A program made the translations under genes and the position numbers. Below, one piece after another: positions 45,568 to 54,196 of a stretch of 64,000 nt of DNA. The DNA lies in assembly GCA_030690365.1 (NCBI GenBank), contig JAUYGX010000125.1:62001-126000 (forward strand), read 5' to 3'. Numbering within the stretch: the first letter of the stretch is position 1; every line of letters starts with the position of its first letter. Below the pieces are notes generated by a model that was given only the letters and a program-made list of their open reading frames with translations, did no database searches and was not told the DNA's origin. The DNA comes from Bacteroidales bacterium. Its GTDB lineage: Bacteria > Bacteroidota > Bacteroidia > Bacteroidales > F082.

Positions 45568-45607
45568 ACTGTTGCATTATTCAACACCTGTTGTATAATG
45601 CAACAGT
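45568..45607. promoter_or_regulatory. 13-bp perfect dyad, candidate activator binding site
   Basis: actgttgcattat (45568-45580) and ataatgcaacagt (45595-45607) are exact inverted copies; the 14-base spacer holds a further caaca/tgttg pair, making the element almost fully palindromic. It lies about 145 bases before the candidate sigma-54 promoter, the usual range for an enhancer site of an NtrC-type activator, and such an activator is encoded at 52258-53598. It has no T-run and no gene ends next to it, so a terminator is less likely. Confidence 0.55.
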
Positions 45608-45751
45608 ACCCCTAATCAACTGATATATAACCTACTCATTTCTAAAGACGATATCTTGTGTAACGAAATTCAACACAAGCCTTCCTTATTTTACAGGCGA
45701 ACATTTTATAACATACATATAAACAGCATGTTACAACTCTGTTTTTGGGTT

Positions 45752-45767
45752 TGGCATGCGGTTTGAC
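45752..45767 (+). promoter_or_regulatory. Candidate sigma-54 promoter of the FeS/NrfD module
   Basis: TGGCAT (45752-45757), five bases, then TTGAC (45763-45767). Against the consensus TGGCAC-N5-TTGCA it keeps GG at -24 and TTG at -14/-12 but has A in place of the usually conserved C. It is 61 bases before the ATG at 45829, and no TAnnTTTG element is seen there. Confidence 0.45.
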
Positions 45768-45828: not shown

Positions 45829-47520
45829 ATGAAAAAGTTCATTCCATTAATTAGTTTAGCGACCCTTTTTGTAGTTCTTTCTACAAATATTAATCAGGTG
45901 TCGGCAAAATCCTTTGAAGCCAAAAGCGACTCTGTGCAAATTTGGTGCAGTCCCGATCTGGCCGAAATAGCTTCCTCCTGGGTGAGCGTGTACACCCGGC
46001 TAAATCCTGAAATAAATTTGGGTTTGAAAATAGCCGACAAGGAAGATATTCATGTGTTGATGGAAAAACCGGAATTTTTTGGGTTTTTCTCCGGTAATTT
46101 TATCACCAACGACAATAACCTTTCTGTCTGGACAACAACTGTCGGGCGCGAAATCATCGTCCCTGTGATGAATACCAAAAATCCCTTCCTCAACCAAATC
46201 CTTCAACAAGGAATTGCTCCCGCGCAATTTGCAGAGGTTTTTGCTGGTTCGTCAAATCAAACCTGGGGTAAACTGCTTGATGATGAGTCGCTAAATTCAG
46301 TTGGATGTGCCTGTTTTGGAGAAACATACAACGATTCAAACTTATCAGAATTTTTGAAAACGAACAAGGAAAATATCCATTATACAAAGGTTTTGGGGAA
46401 AGAGGGATTTATTACAGAAATATTAAACAATCCCAATTCAATTGGATTTTGTCGACTGACCGATGTGCTTGATCCTGAAAATCAAGAATTGCTGGAAGGC
46501 ATTAGTTTGGTGCCAATTGATATGAACAGCAATAAAAAGGTGGATTATTTTGAAGATATTTACAACAACTCCGGTGATTTGGCCCGGGGCCTCTGGATAG
46601 GTAAATATCCCAGAACCTTGTACCAAAACATTTACGCCCTTTCCGGCATTCAGCCAACGGGGGAGACGAATCTGGATTTCCTGGAATGGATTCTCACAGG
46701 TGGACAACACTATCTATATTCTGCCGGTTATTCTGAACTGGTTTTCAATGAGCGAAAATCAAAATTAGAAGACTTAACGGAGGTTCATGTTCCCATTGTC
46801 GATGCACAAACAAATTCAAACCAAACCGCTATGATCTTGATATTTATCGGATTACTGGTGGCTGCCGGATTTATCCTGTTCCTAGTGATCAACTATTTCG
46901 GTGGTGAAAAAAAAGAAGCAGTATCGGAAGAAAACCCCGATATTCCGGTGTTTGGTGAGCATTCTGTAACGGCTCCTGCCGGTTTGTTTTTCGATAAATC
47001 GCATACCTGGGCCTTTATGGAAAAAGAGGGTGCTGTCAGAATTGGGATTGACGATTTCCTTCAACATGTAACGGGTTCCATCACGAAAGTGAAGATGAGA
47101 AATCCGGGAGAAAAAATCAAAAAAGGAGAACCTTTTCTTTCACTCATTCAACATGGTAAACAACTGGATATCAAATCTCCGGTAACGGGAACCATTCTGG
47201 AAAGAAACATGTGGCTTCAAACGGAGTCTTCAATTCTCAACATTTCGCCTTACGGCGAAGGGTGGGTGTACATGATGAAATCGGATAACTGGCTAAAGGA
47301 AATAAAGTCACTTTTTATGGGCGAATCCTATCAAGCCTGGTTGCAGTACGAATTTTCAAGATTGAAGGATTTTCTTTCCTTCAACATTAAATCAAAATCG
47401 TTTGTTAATTTACCTGTGGTATTGCAGGAGGGAGGAGAAATGAAAGATCACATGCTGGAGGAATTCGGGCCGCAAGTGTGGGAGGAATTTCAAAACGATT
47501 TTATCAATGGTGCTGACTGA
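45829..47520 (+). CDS. Solute-binding-like domain fused through a membrane helix to a glycine-cleavage-H-like domain
   Basis: 563 residues. Residues 1-26 are a signal peptide (MKKFIPLISLATLFVVLSTN). Residues of about 31-325 resemble a type II periplasmic binding protein of the PstS/ModA kind (VQIWCSPDLAEIASSWVSVY, EFFGFFSGNFIT, NPNSIGFCRLTDVL). A membrane helix spans about 334-356. Residues of about 385-490 form a GcvH-like lipoyl-type domain (FFDKSHTWAFMEKEG, VRIGIDDFLQHVTGSI, SPYGEGWVYMMKSDNW). At the place of the lipoylated lysine stands G443, with K444 one step off. The tail has VVLQEGGE and QVWEEFQNDF, shared with the 49667-50395 product. By topology the binding domain is periplasmic and the H-like domain cytoplasmic. 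First gene of the module; its partner and ligand are unknown. Confidence 0.82.
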   Translation: MKKFIPLISLATLFVVLSTNINQVSAKSFEAKSDSVQIWCSPDLAEIASSWVSVYTRLNPEINLGLKIADKEDIHVLMEKPEFFGFFSGNFITNDNNLSVWTTTVGREIIVPVMNTKNPFLNQILQQGIAPAQFAEVFAGSSNQTWGKLLDDESLNSVGCACFGETYNDSNLSEFLKTNKENIHYTKVLGKEGFITEILNNPNSIGFCRLTDVLDPENQELLEGISLVPIDMNSNKKVDYFEDIYNNSGDLARGLWIGKYPRTLYQNIYALSGIQPTGETNLDFLEWILTGGQHYLYSAGYSELVFNERKSKLEDLTEVHVPIVDAQTNSNQTAMILIFIGLLVAAGFILFLVINYFGGEKKEAVSEENPDIPVFGEHSVTAPAGLFFDKSHTWAFMEKEGAVRIGIDDFLQHVTGSITKVKMRNPGEKIKKGEPFLSLIQHGKQLDIKSPVTGTILERNMWLQTESSILNISPYGEGWVYMMKSDNWLKEIKSLFMGESYQAWLQYEFSRLKDFLSFNIKSKSFVNLPVVLQEGGEMKDHMLEEFGPQVWEEFQNDFINGAD

Positions 47521-47564
47521 TAAATCTCAATTAAGTTTTTGTGTTCGACCTAAATTTAGATGCT

Positions 47565-48434
47565 ATGAATATAAATCGACGAAACTTTCTTGCTGTACTG
47601 GGCGTGACGGGGGTATCACTGGCCACCGGAACAAAGTTGCAAGCCAGCCGGGAAAATGAAAATGACACAGAATTCTATGGTGTACTGTACGACTCCACCC
47701 GATGTGTGGGTTGTCAGGGTTGTGAAACTGCCTGTGCGGAGGAGCATGGATTGCCCGAACCCGACCCGGACGACATGCCGGAAGTTGGCAAGGTACGCAA
47801 GGCCAACGAAAACCGCCGTACAGTGGTTAATGTGTACGATACCAGTCAGGGTGAGGTGTATGTAAAAAATCAATGTATGCATTGCAACCAACCAGCTTGT
47901 ACATCAGCTTGTTTGACGCGTGCCATGCAAAAAACCATGGAGGGACCTGTAACCTGGACAGGTGATAAATGTATGGGATGCCGTTATTGCATGGTTTCGT
48001 GTCCGTTCGATGTACCCAAGTTTGAATACCACAGCGCCAATCCGAAGATCGTAAAATGCAATATGTGTTACGAACGGGTAGTAGAAGGTAAACTGCCGGC
48101 ATGTGTCGAAAACTGTCCGGCCGAAGCACTTACTTTTGGAACCCGGCGCGAATTGGTTGCGGAAGCCCACCGAAGAATCAGTGAAAATCCTGATGTATAT
48201 TTTGGGGAAATCTATGGAGAAACCGAAGCCGGGGGTACCGGATTTCTGTACCTCTCTCCGGTTCCTTTCAAAGAACTGGGTTTCAATACTTCTGTTCAGA
48301 AAAGCTCTTACCCTGAATTAACAAAGGGATTTCTTTACAGCGTACCTACCATTTTTGTTTTGTGGCCGGCCGCTTTGCTTGGGATTCAAAAAGCCTTAAA
48401 GAACAATACAACACAGGAGGAAGATCATGAATAA
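47565..48434 (+). CDS. Tat-exported ferredoxin-type subunit with four [4Fe-4S] sites (HybA-like)
   Basis: 289 residues from the ATG at 47565; an upstream GTG at 47541 would displace the twin-arginine signal MNINRRNFLAVLGVTG from the N-terminus. Sixteen cysteines fall in four groups: C47-C50-C53-C57, C104-C107-C112-C116, C136-C139-C142-C146 and C165-C168-C180-C184, enough for four [4Fe-4S] clusters. A hydrophobic helix near residues 253-275 (FLYSVPTIFVLWPAALLG) would anchor it to the membrane, as in HybA of hydrogenase-2. It should pass electrons between an outside partner and the membrane subunit encoded next, with which it overlaps by 8 bases. No catalytic subunit gene is beside it. Confidence 0.9.
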   Translation: MNINRRNFLAVLGVTGVSLATGTKLQASRENENDTEFYGVLYDSTRCVGCQGCETACAEEHGLPEPDPDDMPEVGKVRKANENRRTVVNVYDTSQGEVYVKNQCMHCNQPACTSACLTRAMQKTMEGPVTWTGDKCMGCRYCMVSCPFDVPKFEYHSANPKIVKCNMCYERVVEGKLPACVENCPAEALTFGTRRELVAEAHRRISENPDVYFGEIYGETEAGGTGFLYLSPVPFKELGFNTSVQKSSYPELTKGFLYSVPTIFVLWPAALLGIQKALKNNTTQEEDHE

Positions 48435-49653
48435 TCAGGAAACAATACTGGCGAAAGACAATGATGGTATGCCCATCGTTAAGTTCCTGCGGGAAGCTAT
48501 CAAGCCGAGGGGCGCTATTTTTACACCTTTTAACGTCATTTCGGTACCCATCATGTTGTTGGGTCTCGGAATCATCGTCGTCAGGTTTATAAAGGGAATT
48601 GGTGCCGTAACCAACCTTACCCAGGAAGTACCGTGGGGCCTCTGGATTGGTTTTGATGTGGTTACGGGAGTCGCCTTTGCGGGTGGAGCCTATGTTATCA
48701 CCTTTATGGTGTATATCCTTCACATGAAGAAATACCATTCCATCGTCCGGGTAACTGTATTGAACGGATTTCTGGCTTATGTGTTTTATGCCGGTGCATT
48801 ATTGCTCGATTTGGGTCGCCCCTGGAATGTAATTAATCCGATCATTGGCAACAGTTTTGGCGTGAGTTCGGTACTTTTTCTGGTAGCGTGGCATTTTTTG
48901 TTGTATATGATCGCCATGCTGATCGAATTTTCTCCCGCTATTGCGGAATGGATCGGGCTTCAGCGGGCGCGGAAAATCCTTTCGGGGATGACCCTGGCCG
49001 CCGTCATTTTTGGGATCACACTTTCTACCCTTCACCAATCAGGTTTGGGGGCTTTGTACCTGATGGCAAGAGACAAAATTCACCCGTTGTGGTATTCTGA
49101 ATTTATCCCGGTTTTGTTCTTTGTTTCGAGCATATTTGCCGGTCTTTCGATGGTTATTTTTGAAGGATCAATCAGCCATAAGATATTTGGTAGCCAAATC
49201 AGTGATAAAAACCACCGGGCTCATGATGGGATTATACATGGGCTTTCTAAAATTTGTACCTTGACCATGTTTATTTACTTTTTCTTACAGGTACTTACTT
49301 TTGTCCATGGCAAGCGCTGGATTTATCTGGACAGTCCGATGGGAACCTGGTACCTGGTGGAAATCATTGGCTTTGTTCTCCTGCCGATGGTGCTGTTTTT
49401 CTACAGTTACCGAAATCAGAACATCTTTCTTATAAAACTGGCCGCATTTATAACCATGGTAGGCGTAATTATCAACCGGCTCAATGTTACTGTTATTGGC
49501 TTTAGATGGGATGCGGCGGTGCATTATTTCCCATCATGGATGGAGATTGTTGTTACGCTTACCGTATTGTTTGTCGAGATCTGGATTTTCAGGTGGATAG
49601 TAAACCGTTTGCCGGTGTTGCGCGACTCCCCATCCTGGGTAAACAACAAATAA
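48427..49653 (+). CDS. NrfD/HybB-type quinone-interacting membrane subunit
   Basis: 408 residues with nine or ten membrane helices. Family features include the EVPWGLWIGFDVVTGVAFAGGAYV segment, GRPWNVINPIIGNSFGVSSVLF, STLHQSGLGALYLMARDKIHPLWYSEFIPVLFFVSSIFAG, and the HGKRWIYLDSP loop, which put it closer to HybB than to NrfD or PsrC. No heme is expected. It exchanges electrons between quinone and the ferredoxin subunit of the preceding, overlapping gene. In known systems a molybdoenzyme, hydrogenase or cytochrome completes the complex; none is present in this window. Confidence 0.9.
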   Translation: MNNQETILAKDNDGMPIVKFLREAIKPRGAIFTPFNVISVPIMLLGLGIIVVRFIKGIGAVTNLTQEVPWGLWIGFDVVTGVAFAGGAYVITFMVYILHMKKYHSIVRVTVLNGFLAYVFYAGALLLDLGRPWNVINPIIGNSFGVSSVLFLVAWHFLLYMIAMLIEFSPAIAEWIGLQRARKILSGMTLAAVIFGITLSTLHQSGLGALYLMARDKIHPLWYSEFIPVLFFVSSIFAGLSMVIFEGSISHKIFGSQISDKNHRAHDGIIHGLSKICTLTMFIYFFLQVLTFVHGKRWIYLDSPMGTWYLVEIIGFVLLPMVLFFYSYRNQNIFLIKLAAFITMVGVIINRLNVTVIGFRWDAAVHYFPSWMEIVVTLTVLFVEIWIFRWIVNRLPVLRDSPSWVNNK

Positions 49654-49666
49654 ATTAACCTTAAAA

Positions 49667-50395
49667 ATGATTATTATGGAAGGCTATAGTTATATCAACA
49701 TTTTCGATACCAAGGGAATTGAGTACCTGGTTATCATTGGGTTTCTTTTGCTTTTAGTCCCTTTTTGGAGGGCACTGAACAAACCGTTGAAAGCCAGGGT
49801 AACTGCCCTGTCGCCGTTGAGGGTGCTTACGGCAAATATCCTGAAAATCCCGCAAGGGATACTTTACAGCCGGAATCACACATGGGCGCACCTCGAAAAA
49901 GAAGGATATGCCCATGTGGGTCTGGACGATTTATTGCTACACATTATCGGGCAGGTCAGCATCAAGGTATTTAAAATGCCTGGTGACAAAGTTATTAAGG
50001 GAGAACAAATTGCTGAAATTTCGCGGGTCGGGGGGTCTCTTACGATAAAATCTCCTATCTCCGGCGAGGTTCAGGGAGTCAACACTTCGCTTCGTGAGGA
50101 TACCGGTGCTTTAAGCGCCGATCCGTACGGAAAAGGGTGGATGTACCAAATAAAACCTGAGAGGTGGGCCGAGGATACTAAAGCATGTTTTCTGGCCAAT
50201 GAAGCCACCCTCTGGTTTAAGACCGAGCTGCTGAGGTTCAAAGACTTTATGGCCATGTCGATAAACAAATACACCCCCGAAACCGTCCAGGTGGTTTTGC
50301 AGGAAGGAGGCGAATTGGCTGATAATCCGCTTGTAGGTATGCCGGCAGAAGTATGGCTTGATTTCCAGGAGCATTTTCTGGATCAGGTAAGTTGA
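49667..50395 (+). CDS. Membrane-anchored glycine-cleavage-H-like protein
   Basis: 242 residues (ATG at 49667; a second in-frame ATG three codons on at 49676). One membrane helix lies at about 18-36 (IEYLVIIGFLLLLVPFW). A GcvH-like domain covers about 62-165: LYSRNHTWAHLEKEG, AHVGLDDLLLHIIGQV, LTIKSPISGEV, ADPYGKGWMYQIKPERW. Where GcvH has its lipoylated lysine, this has G122 in SRVGGSLTIKSP with no lysine nearby, so lipoylation seems impossible. The tail shares VVLQEGGEL and EVWLDFQEHF with the 45829-47520 product, so both belong to one unusual family. It is the last gene of the membrane module, before the two-component genes. Confidence 0.83.
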   Translation: MIIMEGYSYINIFDTKGIEYLVIIGFLLLLVPFWRALNKPLKARVTALSPLRVLTANILKIPQGILYSRNHTWAHLEKEGYAHVGLDDLLLHIIGQVSIKVFKMPGDKVIKGEQIAEISRVGGSLTIKSPISGEVQGVNTSLREDTGALSADPYGKGWMYQIKPERWAEDTKACFLANEATLWFKTELLRFKDFMAMSINKYTPETVQVVLQEGGELADNPLVGMPAEVWLDFQEHFLDQVS

Positions 50396-50539: not shown

Positions 50540-52246
50540 ATGAACAAAAATAATGCTTCAATAATACCAGCTGCCATGTCAGGAAGTCTGAAAAAGTTTT
50601 ATGCAAAATTGCTCGACAACGAGCTTGTGAAGAGTTATATCCGCTTAAAATCATCCATCTATGGCCGGGTTGTATTTATTATTGGTGGTTCCATATTGGT
50701 GTTATATGTGTTATTTAATATTATTTTTCGATCGGTTTATGTAGATTTTATCAACACTACAATCCGGCAAAATGGCGATAATGTGAGTTCCATCGTTGAA
50801 GGTTCATTGTATTATTCCATGCTCGAAAACGACAAAGCCATGCTGCAACGAACGCTATACATTATCAGCACCATGTCGGGAATTGATGAGGTGAACATGT
50901 ACAACGACAACGACAGCCTGGCGTTTACCTCCATCTCAGCAGAAAAAGAGGGGCGTGGAAACCCGGATTGCGGGGTCTGCCATACTGATTTTGGTACCAT
51001 GTTTCCTCCCAAAGAAAAATCGTACCGCATCGTAGGCGAGATGCCGGATTGTGGAATTTCACAAACAGAAACCAACAGCCGCTATCTGTTGATCAGAAAA
51101 CCCATTCTAAACGAAAAATCATGCTACACAGCGGCCTGTCATGCCCATGACAGGGAAGATGAGGTACTTGGATCGTTGATTATCAAGTTGCCTTTGAATG
51201 AAATTGACGCCTTCGAGAATAAGTCGACTACCGACTTTCTTCTTCTGGTATCGCTGATTACTGCACTTTTGATGACTTTTTTAATCGTGTTTACCTGGAA
51301 GAAGATCAAAAACCCATTGTATTCCATCATTCATGCCAGCGAGGCAGTATCCAAAGGCGATACCAGTATCCGTCTGGAGATAAAACCAAATTTGCTCGAC
51401 GACCTGAGCAAGGTATCCATGGCGTTTAACAACATGCTCGATAACATCGATTCTGCTGCCACCGAATTGCAAAACTGGTCGCAGCAACTGGAGTACAAAG
51501 TGCAACGCAAAACGGAGGAATTGTCGGAAGCACAAAACGAACTCATCCATGTGGAACGAATTGCTTCGCTGGGTAAACTATCTTCTTCGGTTGCACACGA
51601 AATCAACAATCCGTTATCAGGAATTCTTGTTTATACAAAGTTGATCTATAAACAATTAAACAATGCCGATTTTTCTCACCAAAAAAAGGAATCCATTTTA
51701 AAGCATCTAAAACTCATCGAAACAGAAACCAAGCGGTGTGGCGATATTGTAAAAGGATTGCTCGATTTTTCGAGAAAAGACCAGGATGATTTTGAGGTGG
51801 CCAGTCTGCATCCATTGCTGGAGGCTACTTATGCGTTGATGACCCATTCCATAAAAATTGCAGACATCAGCTTTTTGACCGATTTCAGGGCCAATTCCGA
51901 TCAAATATTCTGTAGCCCTAATCAGATCAAGCAAGCTTGTGTGGCCATCCTTGTCAATGCATCGGAGGCTATTGAGGAACATGGTGAAATTATTATCAGA
52001 ACCACAAATCCGGATGAGGACTCCATTCGTCTGGATATTTCAGACAATGGTTTGGGCATTGCACCCGAAGATATGTCGCATATTTTTGAGCCTTTCTTCT
52101 CCACCAAACGCGATGCCAGCGGTATCGGTCTGGGATTGGCCATCGTGCATGGGATCATCGAAAATCACAAAGGCAAAATCACAGTAGATTCCGAAATCGG
52201 GAAAGGCACAACCATATCAATCATTTTCCCGCTTAGCAGGAATTAA
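50540..52246 (+). CDS. Sensor histidine kinase with periplasmic c-type heme motifs
   Basis: 568 residues. Membrane helices at about 43-64 and 232-252 frame a periplasmic domain of about 165 residues. That domain has C144-G-V-C147-H148, a standard CxxCH heme-c motif, and C195-YTAA-C200-H201, a CX4CH variant, so one or two covalently bound hemes are likely. Then come a HAMP segment, a coiled coil, the DHp domain with phosphorylated H353 (SSVAHEINNPLSG) and an ATPase domain with DNGLGI, FEPFFSTK and GIGLGLAIVHGII. It probably senses redox state, a gas or an oxidant at the outer face and phosphorylates the activator encoded 11 bases downstream. A cytochrome maturation system would be needed and is not in view. 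Confidence 0.92.
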   Translation: MNKNNASIIPAAMSGSLKKFYAKLLDNELVKSYIRLKSSIYGRVVFIIGGSILVLYVLFNIIFRSVYVDFINTTIRQNGDNVSSIVEGSLYYSMLENDKAMLQRTLYIISTMSGIDEVNMYNDNDSLAFTSISAEKEGRGNPDCGVCHTDFGTMFPPKEKSYRIVGEMPDCGISQTETNSRYLLIRKPILNEKSCYTAACHAHDREDEVLGSLIIKLPLNEIDAFENKSTTDFLLLVSLITALLMTFLIVFTWKKIKNPLYSIIHASEAVSKGDTSIRLEIKPNLLDDLSKVSMAFNNMLDNIDSAATELQNWSQQLEYKVQRKTEELSEAQNELIHVERIASLGKLSSSVAHEINNPLSGILVYTKLIYKQLNNADFSHQKKESILKHLKLIETETKRCGDIVKGLLDFSRKDQDDFEVASLHPLLEATYALMTHSIKIADISFLTDFRANSDQIFCSPNQIKQACVAILVNASEAIEEHGEIIIRTTNPDEDSIRLDISDNGLGIAPEDMSHIFEPFFSTKRDASGIGLGLAIVHGIIENHKGKITVDSEIGKGTTISIIFPLSRN

Positions 52247-52257
52247 AACACAGTAAA

Positions 52258-53598
52258 ATGGCAAAAAAAATTTCCATCCTGATTGTCGACGACGAAGAAT
52301 CCGTCAGAGACTCCCTGTATAACTGGTTTATTGATGACGGTTACCTGGTTGAATGCGCCGAGAACGCCAAAAAGGCCTTGACGATGCTCGAAGCAAAAGA
52401 TTTTGATATCATTCTGGCCGATATCAAAATGCCCGGAATGGACGGTTTGGAGATGCATCGACGCATAAAAACGCTCAATAAAGAGCCCATTTTTATCGTA
52501 ATGACCGCTTTTGCCTCGGTGGATACAGCGGTTCAGGCGCTTAAAAACGGAGCTTACGATTATGTGACCAAACCCTTCGATCCCGACGATTTATCGCATC
52601 TGATACGCAACGCCACAGCTCAGATTATCCTGAAGACTGAAAATGAAAGCCTTAAAAATAAATTGTCGTCGTTGGTGGATGTGGAAGATTTGATTGGTGA
52701 AAGTGAAGCCCTGCGAAGAGTCCTCAAGGAAGTGGAAAGTGTGGCGCAATCCAATTCGTCGGTGATTATCACTGGCGAAAGTGGCACAGGTAAAGAGTTA
52801 ATTGCCAGAGCGATTCATGCTAATTCTCCCCGAAAATATTTCCCGCTGGTAAGTGTGCATTGTGGTGCATTATCCGAAAGTCTGCTGGAAAGCGAACTTT
52901 TTGGTCATGAAAAAGGAGCGTTTACCGGAGCCACTTTTAACCGAAAGGGACGTTTTGAGATGGCCGATGGAGGCACCATTTTTTTAGATGAAATTGCTAC
53001 CATCTCTTCCAAAATGCAAATTGAACTTTTACGGGTACTGGAGTCGAAAACCTTTGTGAGGGTTGGCGGCAACAAGGAAATATCCTCCGATTTCAGGGTT
53101 ATCTGCGCCACCAACCGCGATTTGACCAGCATGGTGAAAAATGGCACTTTCCGCGAGGATCTTTTTTACCGGCTGAATGTGGTGAACATCAAAATTCCAC
53201 CTCTGCGTGAGCGAATTGAAGACATCCCACGATTGGCCAACCATTTTATTAAAAAGTACTGTACTTCCATGAGCAGGGACATTATATCCATTGAGCCGGC
53301 CGCTTTAAAACACCTGGAAGGGTTCGAGTTTCCGGGAAATGTACGTGAACTGGAAAATATGATAGAACGCGCCATCGTCATTGGCAATGGCAAAGAAATC
53401 AGGCTCAAGGATCTTCCTATGGGCAAAGAGGTGATAAGCAGTTCCATCGAAAGTCTCGACGATCTGGAGAAAAAGCATATTGCCATGATTTTGAACAAAT
53501 ACGGTTGGAATATTTCGCGTGCCGCAAAAGCATTAAATGTGGATCGGGTAACGCTGTATAACAAAATTAAAAAATACGATCTTAAAGTGGACGAATAG
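52258..53598 (+). CDS. NtrC-family sigma-54-dependent response regulator
   Basis: 446 residues in the order receiver, AAA+ and Fis-type helix-turn-helix. The phosphorylation site is D55 (DIILADIKMPGMDG) with acidic residues DDEE near position 11. The AAA+ domain has the Walker A GESGTGKELIARAIH, the sigma-54 contact loop HEKGAFTGATFNRKG, Walker B GGTIFLDEI and the arginine-finger region REDLFYRLNVV. The C-terminus NISRAAKALNVDRVTLYNKIKKY binds DNA. It is the partner of the heme-motif kinase. The likely target is the module upstream, where a sigma-54-like promoter and a dyad are seen. Confidence 0.95.
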   Translation: MAKKISILIVDDEESVRDSLYNWFIDDGYLVECAENAKKALTMLEAKDFDIILADIKMPGMDGLEMHRRIKTLNKEPIFIVMTAFASVDTAVQALKNGAYDYVTKPFDPDDLSHLIRNATAQIILKTENESLKNKLSSLVDVEDLIGESEALRRVLKEVESVAQSNSSVIITGESGTGKELIARAIHANSPRKYFPLVSVHCGALSESLLESELFGHEKGAFTGATFNRKGRFEMADGGTIFLDEIATISSKMQIELLRVLESKTFVRVGGNKEISSDFRVICATNRDLTSMVKNGTFREDLFYRLNVVNIKIPPLRERIEDIPRLANHFIKKYCTSMSRDIISIEPAALKHLEGFEFPGNVRELENMIERAIVIGNGKEIRLKDLPMGKEVISSSIESLDDLEKKHIAMILNKYGWNISRAAKALNVDRVTLYNKIKKYDLKVDE

Positions 53599-53635
53599 TT
53601 CAAACCGTTAATCACCTTAATTACAGGATTTTTCA

Positions 53636-54196
53636 TTGGAAAAGCAACCTATCATACTCGTCACCTGTGGTCATTTCGAAAAAGAAGTGCTCAGGTTGAT
53701 TTCCGATGATATTACCCGCGCATTTCATCATCCCGTAGTGCAAAAGGAATGTAGTTTCGATTTAAGCAGCTTCTATAATCCGGGCCGCCGCCAGTACGAT
53801 GGCAATGGAATATTGAAGATGGTTGCTGAAAAAGCACCAACTAATGCACTGAAGACTATTGGATTGTTTCGTGTGGATTTGTTTATCCCCATCCTTACCT
53901 ATATTTTTGGGCAGGCATTTTTGAATGGAAACACCGGTATTGCCTCGCTTTTTCGCTTGAAGAATGAATTGTATGGCCTTGAGCATAACAATACACTGCA
54001 AATCGAGCGTTTTAGGAAAGTGATACTTCACGAACTGGGACATACCTTTGGTTTGATCCATTGCCAGTACCCGATTTGCGTTATGCGATCGAGTACCTAT
54101 GTAGAAGATATTGACCAGAAAAAAATCTCCTTCTGTCAAAATTGTCAGAATGAATTAAACAGAATGCAATTGTTGAAGTTACCAGGTGGCGATTAA
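53636..54196 (+). CDS. Archaemetzincin-family zinc protease
   Basis: 186 residues. The zinc motif is HELGHTFGLIHCQYPICVMRSS: the HExxHxxGxxH of metzincins followed at once by a cysteine, with the methionine turn in CVMRSS, and a later CQNC pair. This cysteine-rich layout, with a second structural zinc, is specific to archaemetzincins. The start is TTG at 53636: the frame has no ATG upstream before the in-frame stop at 53618-53620, and an AGGA lies eight bases ahead. The protein is probably cytoplasmic and its substrates are unknown. It is 37 bases after the response regulator and may share its transcript. Confidence 0.9.
   Translation: MEKQPIILVTCGHFEKEVLRLISDDITRAFHHPVVQKECSFDLSSFYNPGRRQYDGNGILKMVAEKAPTNALKTIGLFRVDLFIPILTYIFGQAFLNGNTGIASLFRLKNELYGLEHNNTLQIERFRKVILHELGHTFGLIHCQYPICVMRSSTYVEDIDQKKISFCQNCQNELNRMQLLKLPGGD

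Follow-up and report, generated by a model that had tools for sequence, protein, structure and literature searches.

In PMC8076601, NrfD-type membrane subunits are treated as components of energy-transducing enzymes. The closest described counterparts of the locus reported here are the Hmc complex of sulfate reducers (HmcABCDEF) and the HybA/HybB pair of Escherichia coli hydrogenase-2. The locus is a set of seven genes, which we call A to G (Table 1), within a 64,000-nucleotide stretch of contig JAUYGX010000125.1 from a Bacteroidales bacterium (hereafter the window). As with Hmc, its iron-sulfur (FeS) protein B and its NrfD-type protein C give their best NCBIfam scores with HmcB (327 bits, cut-off 420) and HmcC (408 bits, cut-off 550), both below the cut-off. 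Unlike Hmc, the window holds no multiheme cytochrome: the histidine kinase E is its only open reading frame (ORF) longer than 120 amino acids with a CxxCH motif, of which it carries one, and there is no HmcA-type 16-heme cytochrome. The set instead adds genes for a kinase, a regulator, a protease, and two proteins resembling the glycine cleavage H protein (GcvH). As in hydrogenase-2, the FeS cysteines are kept in B and four HybB residues are kept in C, but no NiFe hydrogenase gene occurs among seven flanking ORFs scanned.

Proteins A and D share the GCV_H fold, by profile, with the glycine cleavage H protein and the lipoate-binding protein LbpA. In contrast to these, both are without the lipoyl lysine, carry transmembrane (TM) anchors and a C-terminal extension with an LQ-GG motif, and score 69.5 (A) and 59.2 (D) bits with the gcvH model TIGR00527, below its cut-off of 115.85 bits. 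Proteins E and F resemble the NtrB/NtrC sigma54 two-component systems in joining a kinase and an activator with a sigma54-like promoter and an upstream palindrome, whereas E has a heme-motif Cache sensor and the two are tied in a fixed manner to GcvH-like proteins as well as to a redox pair in the membrane. Protein G shares the zinc and cysteine motif of the archaemetzincins (AmzA, M54), in the form given in PMC3427221, and is here tied to a two-component system. According to PMC3427221 and PMC4681839, archaemetzincins are found in archaea and bacteria as well as in some mammals or eukarya, and little is known of what they do biologically. No description of such a gene set was found in open-licence papers, which is in keeping with the initial annotation of the locus, where no described system of this composition could be named.

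On balance, and with no more than moderate confidence, we favor the interpretation that the set is a redox-linked two-component signaling module in which the Hmc/Hyb-type quinone module would serve as redox input or target. We arrive at a two-component system with the quinone module as its input or target because the GcvH-like domains keep company with signaling genes and because the loci examined show no catalytic enzyme that recurs next to the redox pair, although multiheme cytochromes do recur there. The features drawn upon are those that can be read from the sequences, namely the order of the genes, the conserved motifs, the missing lipoyl lysine, the promoter element, fusions of receiver domains to GcvH-like domains, and forms of the set that have no redox pair.

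The initial annotation had described a module of four adjacent genes, A to D. The types it assigned to them were confirmed by ORFs (all four open at the coordinates in Table 1, with A-B, B-C, and C-D spacings of 20, -8, and 13 bp), domain matches, and topology. The unit proved to be larger. Among the best 80 loci matching D in a scan of genome contigs, nine (L001-L009, with record titles naming Bacteroidales, Marinilabiliales, Bacteroidetes, and one Chlorobiota) carry A-B-C-D and then E, F, and G in one order and on one strand, and E-F-G (50540-54196) belongs to the same conserved unit. The contig of L004 ends after D, A of L003 is without the binding domain (L003 was left out of the upstream-region and binding-domain sets), and B is split in L002 and F in L001, for which reason these rows were left out of the B and F alignments. 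In the remaining 71 D-matching loci neither B nor C found a match, and a few of these loci showed generic kinase or regulator matches. By neighbor clustering, no gene outside A-G is common to more than three of the nine relatives. Of the conserved order and the fifth, catalytic gene that had been envisaged for other genomes, only the order was found; the genes next in line encode the kinase, the NtrC-type regulator, and the archaemetzincin, none of them a catalytic redox enzyme.

Table 1. Genes and candidate regulatory sites of the A-G locus (positions in the window)
Feature	Position	Strand	Description
A	45829..47520	+	Signal peptide, PstS-like binding domain, TM segment, lipoate-free GcvH-like domain, C-terminal extension
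B	47541..48434 (likely start 47565)	+	Probably Tat-exported (twin-arginine translocation) 16-Cys FeS protein, C-terminal TM segment, HmcB/HybA-like
C	48427..49653	+	NrfD-type quinone subunit, HmcC/HybB-like
D	49667..50395	+	TM-anchored lipoate-free GcvH-like protein, C-terminal extension as in A
E	50540..52246	+	Histidine kinase; periplasmic Cache-like sensor with CxxCH and CX4CHxH, HAMP, HisKA, HATPase_c
F	52258..53598	+	NtrC-type response regulator, GAFTGA, phospho-acceptor D55
G	53636..54196	+	Archaemetzincin (peptidase M54), HExxHxxGxxHCx4CxM...CxxC
Sigma54-like -24/-12 element (TGGCAY-N5-TTGA)	45752..45767	+	Before A
Proximal TGT...ACA palindrome	45659..45677	+	Probable F binding site; 93 bp before -24; 16 of 16 consensus score
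Possible distal TGT...ACA palindrome	45589..45607	+	163 bp before the -24 element

The GCV_H match of A (Pfam, E-value 4e-22) lies C-terminal to the signal peptide, the PstS-like domain, and the single TM segment, and that of D (E-value 6e-19) follows one TM segment. The stretch that the two proteins share past GCV_H contains the LQ-GG motif and ends in W..FQ..F. Basic residues after the TM segments would place both GcvH-like domains in the cytoplasm under the positive-inside rule, and this bears out the location first assigned to them. The lipoyl-lysine column was set by five reference GcvH sequences picked by the lipoyl motif itself, which act as a ruler and not as a control; it holds Gly in 10 of 10 A proteins and no Lys in any of 10 D proteins. 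In a wider set, 5 of 66 TM-anchored proteins have Lys in this column, as do 4 of 67 soluble and 3 of 26 receiver-fused ones. A lysine one position past the column is invariant in A, and the same genome holds a separate true GcvH with the lysine (EAVKTV) that was not picked by the motif. Because the lipoyl lysine is missing, A and D are not lipoyl carriers, and lipoate chemistry through them was rejected.

The wider distribution of these proteins was surveyed in 395 genomes of the same phylum (Bacteroidota), using a profile of GcvH plus the extension (E-value <= 1e-25), and in 247 genomes of the phylum to which L016, a record titled as Desulfobacterales, belongs (hereafter the Desulfobacterales-type phylum). 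The profile matches 52 of the 395 genomes, of which 30 have the non-fused form, 26 the receiver-fused form, and four both, the forms being told apart by ORF length. An archaemetzincin gene is present in all 30 genomes with the non-fused form and lies within 10 kb in 24 of them, and it occurs in just two of the 22 genomes with only the receiver-fused form, where neither copy is linked. In the Desulfobacterales-type phylum, 148 genomes match a wider profile (E-value <= 1e-24), a count that includes true GcvH.

Gene content was then tabulated for 80 loci chosen via GcvH-like matches from the upper part of the lists, which is a non-random sample. Half of these loci (40) encode FeS, NrfD, and GcvH-like proteins with a heme-motif kinase, an NtrC-type regulator, and an archaemetzincin. 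Another form, found at 13 loci of which two are also among the 40, combines FeS and NrfD with a 13-heme cytochrome, a heme-motif kinase, and receiver-GcvH proteins. Both the receiver Asp, the phosphorylation site, and the receiver Lys are kept in 26 of 26 fusions from the mapped loci. Nine loci (L186, L187, L218, L220, L221, L224-L226, L228) have a GcvH-like gene, a kinase, an NtrC-type regulator, and an archaemetzincin with neither FeS nor NrfD, and their kinases are without CxxCH in the first 330 residues. The other 20 loci lack one or more of these labels, in some cases because a contig or fetched stretch ends there. The several forms come from other classes of Bacteroidota and from the Desulfobacterales-type phylum. 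Judged by this gene content, GcvH-like domains follow signaling proteins more than they follow the redox pair. They are better understood as signaling parts, in view of the receiver fusions and the sets without FeS and NrfD.

Kinase E has the layout of a c-type heme sensor kinase, in which CxxCH-type motifs lie in the periplasm between two TM segments and are joined to HisKA and HATPase_c domains. Among the 57 heme-motif kinases of this first locus survey, including that of the window, CX4CH is present in 57 and is extended by x-His in 54; CxxCH is likewise present in 57 of 57, although it was among the criteria by which these kinases were selected. An AlphaFold model of the E sensor (mean pLDDT, the predicted local distance difference test score, of 84) matches Cache/PDC sensors including WalK, and it matches Geobacter GSU0935 at an E-value of 3e-4. 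GSU0935 binds c-type heme. With its two motifs, the E sensor is predicted to carry two covalent c-type hemes. A sequence search of the PDB returned one chance-level match for the E sensor and no match for C.

All of the elements expected of regulator F are present, including the receiver Asp, an AAA+ domain with GAFTGA, and a Fis-type helix-turn-helix. The zinc and four-Cys motif of G is found in the window and in seven of the eight relatives having G (the L006 copy is without that stretch), and it is kept in 54 of 56 surveyed archaemetzincins when a spacer of 14-18 residues is allowed.

The region before A points to the likely target of this regulator. A strict sigma54 pattern occurs in seven of nine upstream regions (the window plus eight relatives), whereas none of 2000 composition shuffles has it in more than one of nine; in the window and in L004 the end of the element departs from the strict pattern. 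The proximal palindrome is matched at -85 to -94 in seven of the nine regions, with scores of 11-16 of 16. Matches to the distal palindrome fall at -161 to -172, also in seven of nine regions, and their scores are weak (10-13 of 16), several being near chance. The palindrome consensus was drawn from the same upstream sequences, and 10-11 of 16 arises by chance in such stretches; only strong proximal matches and like spacing count as evidence. Given the sigma54 element and the palindromes upstream of it, F likely drives its own operon through the promoter before A. The combined pattern of upstream site and promoter has 10 matches in the same genome (nine distinct sites, as two overlap), and only the match before A falls outside ORFs of at least 90 amino acids. 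A wider F regulon in this genome was set aside, since the sole combined pattern outside ORFs precedes A; F may nevertheless have other targets. In the surveyed loci, sigma54-like sites with p <= 0.05 against 200 composition shuffles precede 22 of 29 operons whose first gene encodes a TM-anchored GcvH-like protein, 3 of 12 receiver-GcvH operons headed by FeS, and 29 of 63 operons examined overall, with a few of the best sites falling inside the reading frame.

The redox pair itself looks functional. Protein B (39% identical to E. coli HybA) has 16 cysteines that align with those of HybA, an RRNFL leader, and a C-terminal TM segment, and its Pfam TAT_signal match has an E-value of only 0.017, under the cut-off of that model. 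It likely begins at the ATG at 47565 and not at the GTG at 47541, as the aligned relatives begin at the corresponding ATG. Protein C (27% identical to HybB) has an NrfD match (Pfam, E-value 3e-12) and ten hydrophobic segments. According to PMC8076601, changing R89, Y99, E148, or H184 of HybB lowered H2 oxidation. C looks active because it keeps all four residues, and it is also identical to E. coli HybB at D58, D109, E291, and R329. Eight of 25 compared sites, taken from the residues named in PMC8076601, differ (T63V, S95G, S105A, E133L, S187G, S190A, R265Q, E268T).

The 67 FeS entries of the survey fall mainly into two topologies. Those with a leader, mostly combined with a C-terminal TM segment, comprise most Desulfobacterales-type entries, the window clade, and the receiver-GcvH clusters. 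Those without a leader number 24, of which 23 are also without the C-terminal TM segment, and nearly all come from other classes of Bacteroidota. In a tree of 75 NrfD sequences including HybB, two loci from other classes group with the window and its nine relatives in one clade (100/96). This clade joins 13 Desulfobacterales-type rows (100/98) among further rows of that phylum, and the leaderless and 13-heme forms make up separate branches. The branch holding C begins with the NrfD of L183, a locus with a 16-heme cytochrome. The nesting of the clade with Desulfobacterales-type rows suggests that the NrfD of the set passed between phyla, in either direction.

No catalytic partner for this pair was found among the seven scanned flanking ORFs (thioredoxin-reductase type, cation efflux, PurL, one without a match, beta-lactamase type, cytidylyltransferase type, and LPG_synthase_TM). 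Gene families recurring in at least four of 71 FeS+NrfD loci, within the fetched stretches, include no catalytic redox family, and a multiheme cytochrome family recurs beside FeS+NrfD in 10 of the 71. A hidden catalytic gene was also considered and rejected after clustering of unlabeled neighbors, which gave 17 families in at least four of the 71 loci. Some of the 17 are parts of A-G in L001-L009 or look antisense. Ten family representatives searched against Pfam yielded no catalytic redox partner: three are enzymes (a decarboxylase, one of an aromatic pathway, and an amylase), one is an OPT transporter, one a Maf-domain ORF, and one a multiheme cytochrome, and four have no match. The original observation that no catalytic gene is adjacent thus stands, though the cytochrome family does recur.

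In the mechanism we propose, electron flow, heme attachment, the phosphorelay partners, and what A, D, and G do are predictions. B and C would connect menaquinone with the periplasm as an Hmc/Hyb-type conduit that has no enzyme of its own. The E sensor, with two covalent c-type hemes, would sense how reduced or oxidized these same periplasmic electron carriers are, possibly through direct electron exchange with B. E would phosphorylate F, which would activate the sigma54 promoter before A and raise expression of the operon. In A and D, the GcvH-like domains may be membrane-tethered cytoplasmic adaptors that link B-C to E, F, and G, and G may act in the cytoplasm as a protease that trims a partner protein or removes it.

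Several observations weigh against a signaling module of this kind. In the first locus survey, 52 loci have both a heme-motif kinase and FeS+NrfD, one has the heme-motif kinase only (at a contig end), one has NrfD only (with a separate 16-heme operon), and nine have neither; the Fisher value of 4e-9 for this association ignores common descent, and the loci were picked via GcvH-like matches. A second survey of 20 loci was fetched via the kinase sensor profile (17 without and three with linked NrfD), and all 20 hold a heme-motif kinase. At least 30 of the 80 best kinase-sensor matches in the 247 Desulfobacterales-type genomes have NrfD within 12 kb, among the matches listed, the heme motifs having been checked in part of these 80. 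The NrfD-free loci indicate that heme-motif kinase and NrfD are separable, and the rule that such kinases occur only with NrfD, which held in the first survey, failed in the second. Five of the 17 NrfD-free loci carry GcvH-like or receiver-GcvH genes. Three other loci, L265-L267, combine a heme-motif kinase and FeS+NrfD with a 16- or 5-heme cytochrome and have no GcvH-like gene, as would be expected if the kinase simply regulated genes. There are also 25 Bacteroidota genomes that have an archaemetzincin and neither GcvH-like form. Finally, with 24 of 67 FeS proteins having no export leader, contact between FeS protein and sensor in the periplasm cannot be a general feature.

The strongest competing explanation, which we consider less likely but plausible, is that the locus encodes an ordinary respiratory conduit. 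B and C would then exchange electrons, as in Hmc or Nhc, between menaquinone and multiheme cytochromes that diffuse in the periplasm and have their genes elsewhere; the kinase and NtrC-type regulator would only switch the operon on, and A and D would be structural or assembly subunits. The same genome has three further NrfD genes and 30 Cytochrome_C7 matches at an E-value <= 0.01. Small tetraheme cytochromes occur in several clusters (L113, L130, L131, L173), G of L003 is followed by a protein that combines a cytochrome b561 domain with 16 CxxCH motifs, 13-heme HmcA-like cytochromes are present in 13 of 13 receiver-GcvH clusters, and at L266 the heme-motif kinase sits beside a 16-heme cytochrome, FeS, and NrfD with no GcvH-like genes. 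However, a plain conduit leaves unexplained the receiver-GcvH fusions, the nine FeS/NrfD-free sets of GcvH-like protein, archaemetzincin, kinase, and regulator, and the archaemetzincin in 30 of 30 genomes.

It is improbable that B and C serve a catalytic subunit encoded at a distance, as they would in a normal oxidoreductase that has lost its enzyme gene from the neighborhood to another place. Neighborhood analysis reaches only genes near B-C, which leaves room for such an arrangement. Against it, the stretches fetched for the 71 FeS+NrfD loci contain no catalytic redox family in four or more.

The binding domain of A was modeled with a mean pLDDT of 66, and PstS-type structures top a PDB fold search; PBP_like_2 is matched in seven of nine members, the window copy giving no match. 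That the periplasmic ligand of this domain is the signal, with the redox pair secondary, is very improbable, since the domain is present in A of the window and eight relatives but missing from L003 and from the 100 loci of the two surveys (80 + 20), many with otherwise complete sets. By this distribution it is a lineage-specific addition, and the early idea that it senses or delivers a periplasmic ligand for the system loses ground. Residues 231-242 of A (window 46519-46554) form a D-x-N-x-N-x3-D-x2-E pattern kept in 9 of 9 binding domains, whose spacing we take to be that of an EF-hand calcium loop.

A broader proposal can be made, tentatively and at less than even confidence. An NrfD/FeS quinone module would have been taken out of respiration as a signaling input, reporting to a heme histidine kinase how the quinone pool and the periplasmic cytochromes stand in balance with each other. 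The lipoate-free H-protein domains, receiver-fused in related systems, would represent a new class of two-component adaptor or output that controls an archaemetzincin, giving this orphan protease family a role. The combination of redox pair, heme-motif kinase, lipoate-free GcvH-like proteins, and archaemetzincin is widespread and could let bacteria read the redox state of their membranes. Receiver-GcvH fusions and bacterial archaemetzincins would gain a testable context, and the set may explain part of the GcvH-profile matches that are unable to carry lipoate.

Further observations concern cytochromes and neighboring protein families. The NrfD and Cytochrome_C7 matches in the genome of the window, part of the latter over the model cut-off, lie on contigs C8, C10, C27, C96, C111, C118, and C151 (L229-L238), and the organism is probably a cytochrome-rich anaerobe. 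Receiver-GcvH clusters at L124 (8243-15449), L125 (9797-17048), L126-L129, and L132 encode FeS, NrfD, a 13-heme cytochrome, a heme-motif kinase, and two receiver-GcvH proteins; in several of these loci 19-, 16-, and 4-heme cytochromes follow, and the clusters are perhaps linked to extracellular electron transfer. At L265 and L267, a second, short protein has the same heme-motif sensor, apparently without a kinase part; it adjoins a 5-heme cytochrome, FeS, and NrfD, with the heme-motif kinase and an NtrC-type regulator alongside. A cysteine-rich protein (W...C...C..CP) replaces the second GcvH-like protein at L123 (6465-7148), L125 (5555-6274), and L130 (11084-11836); its family is common to nine loci, and the L123 copy has no Pfam match.

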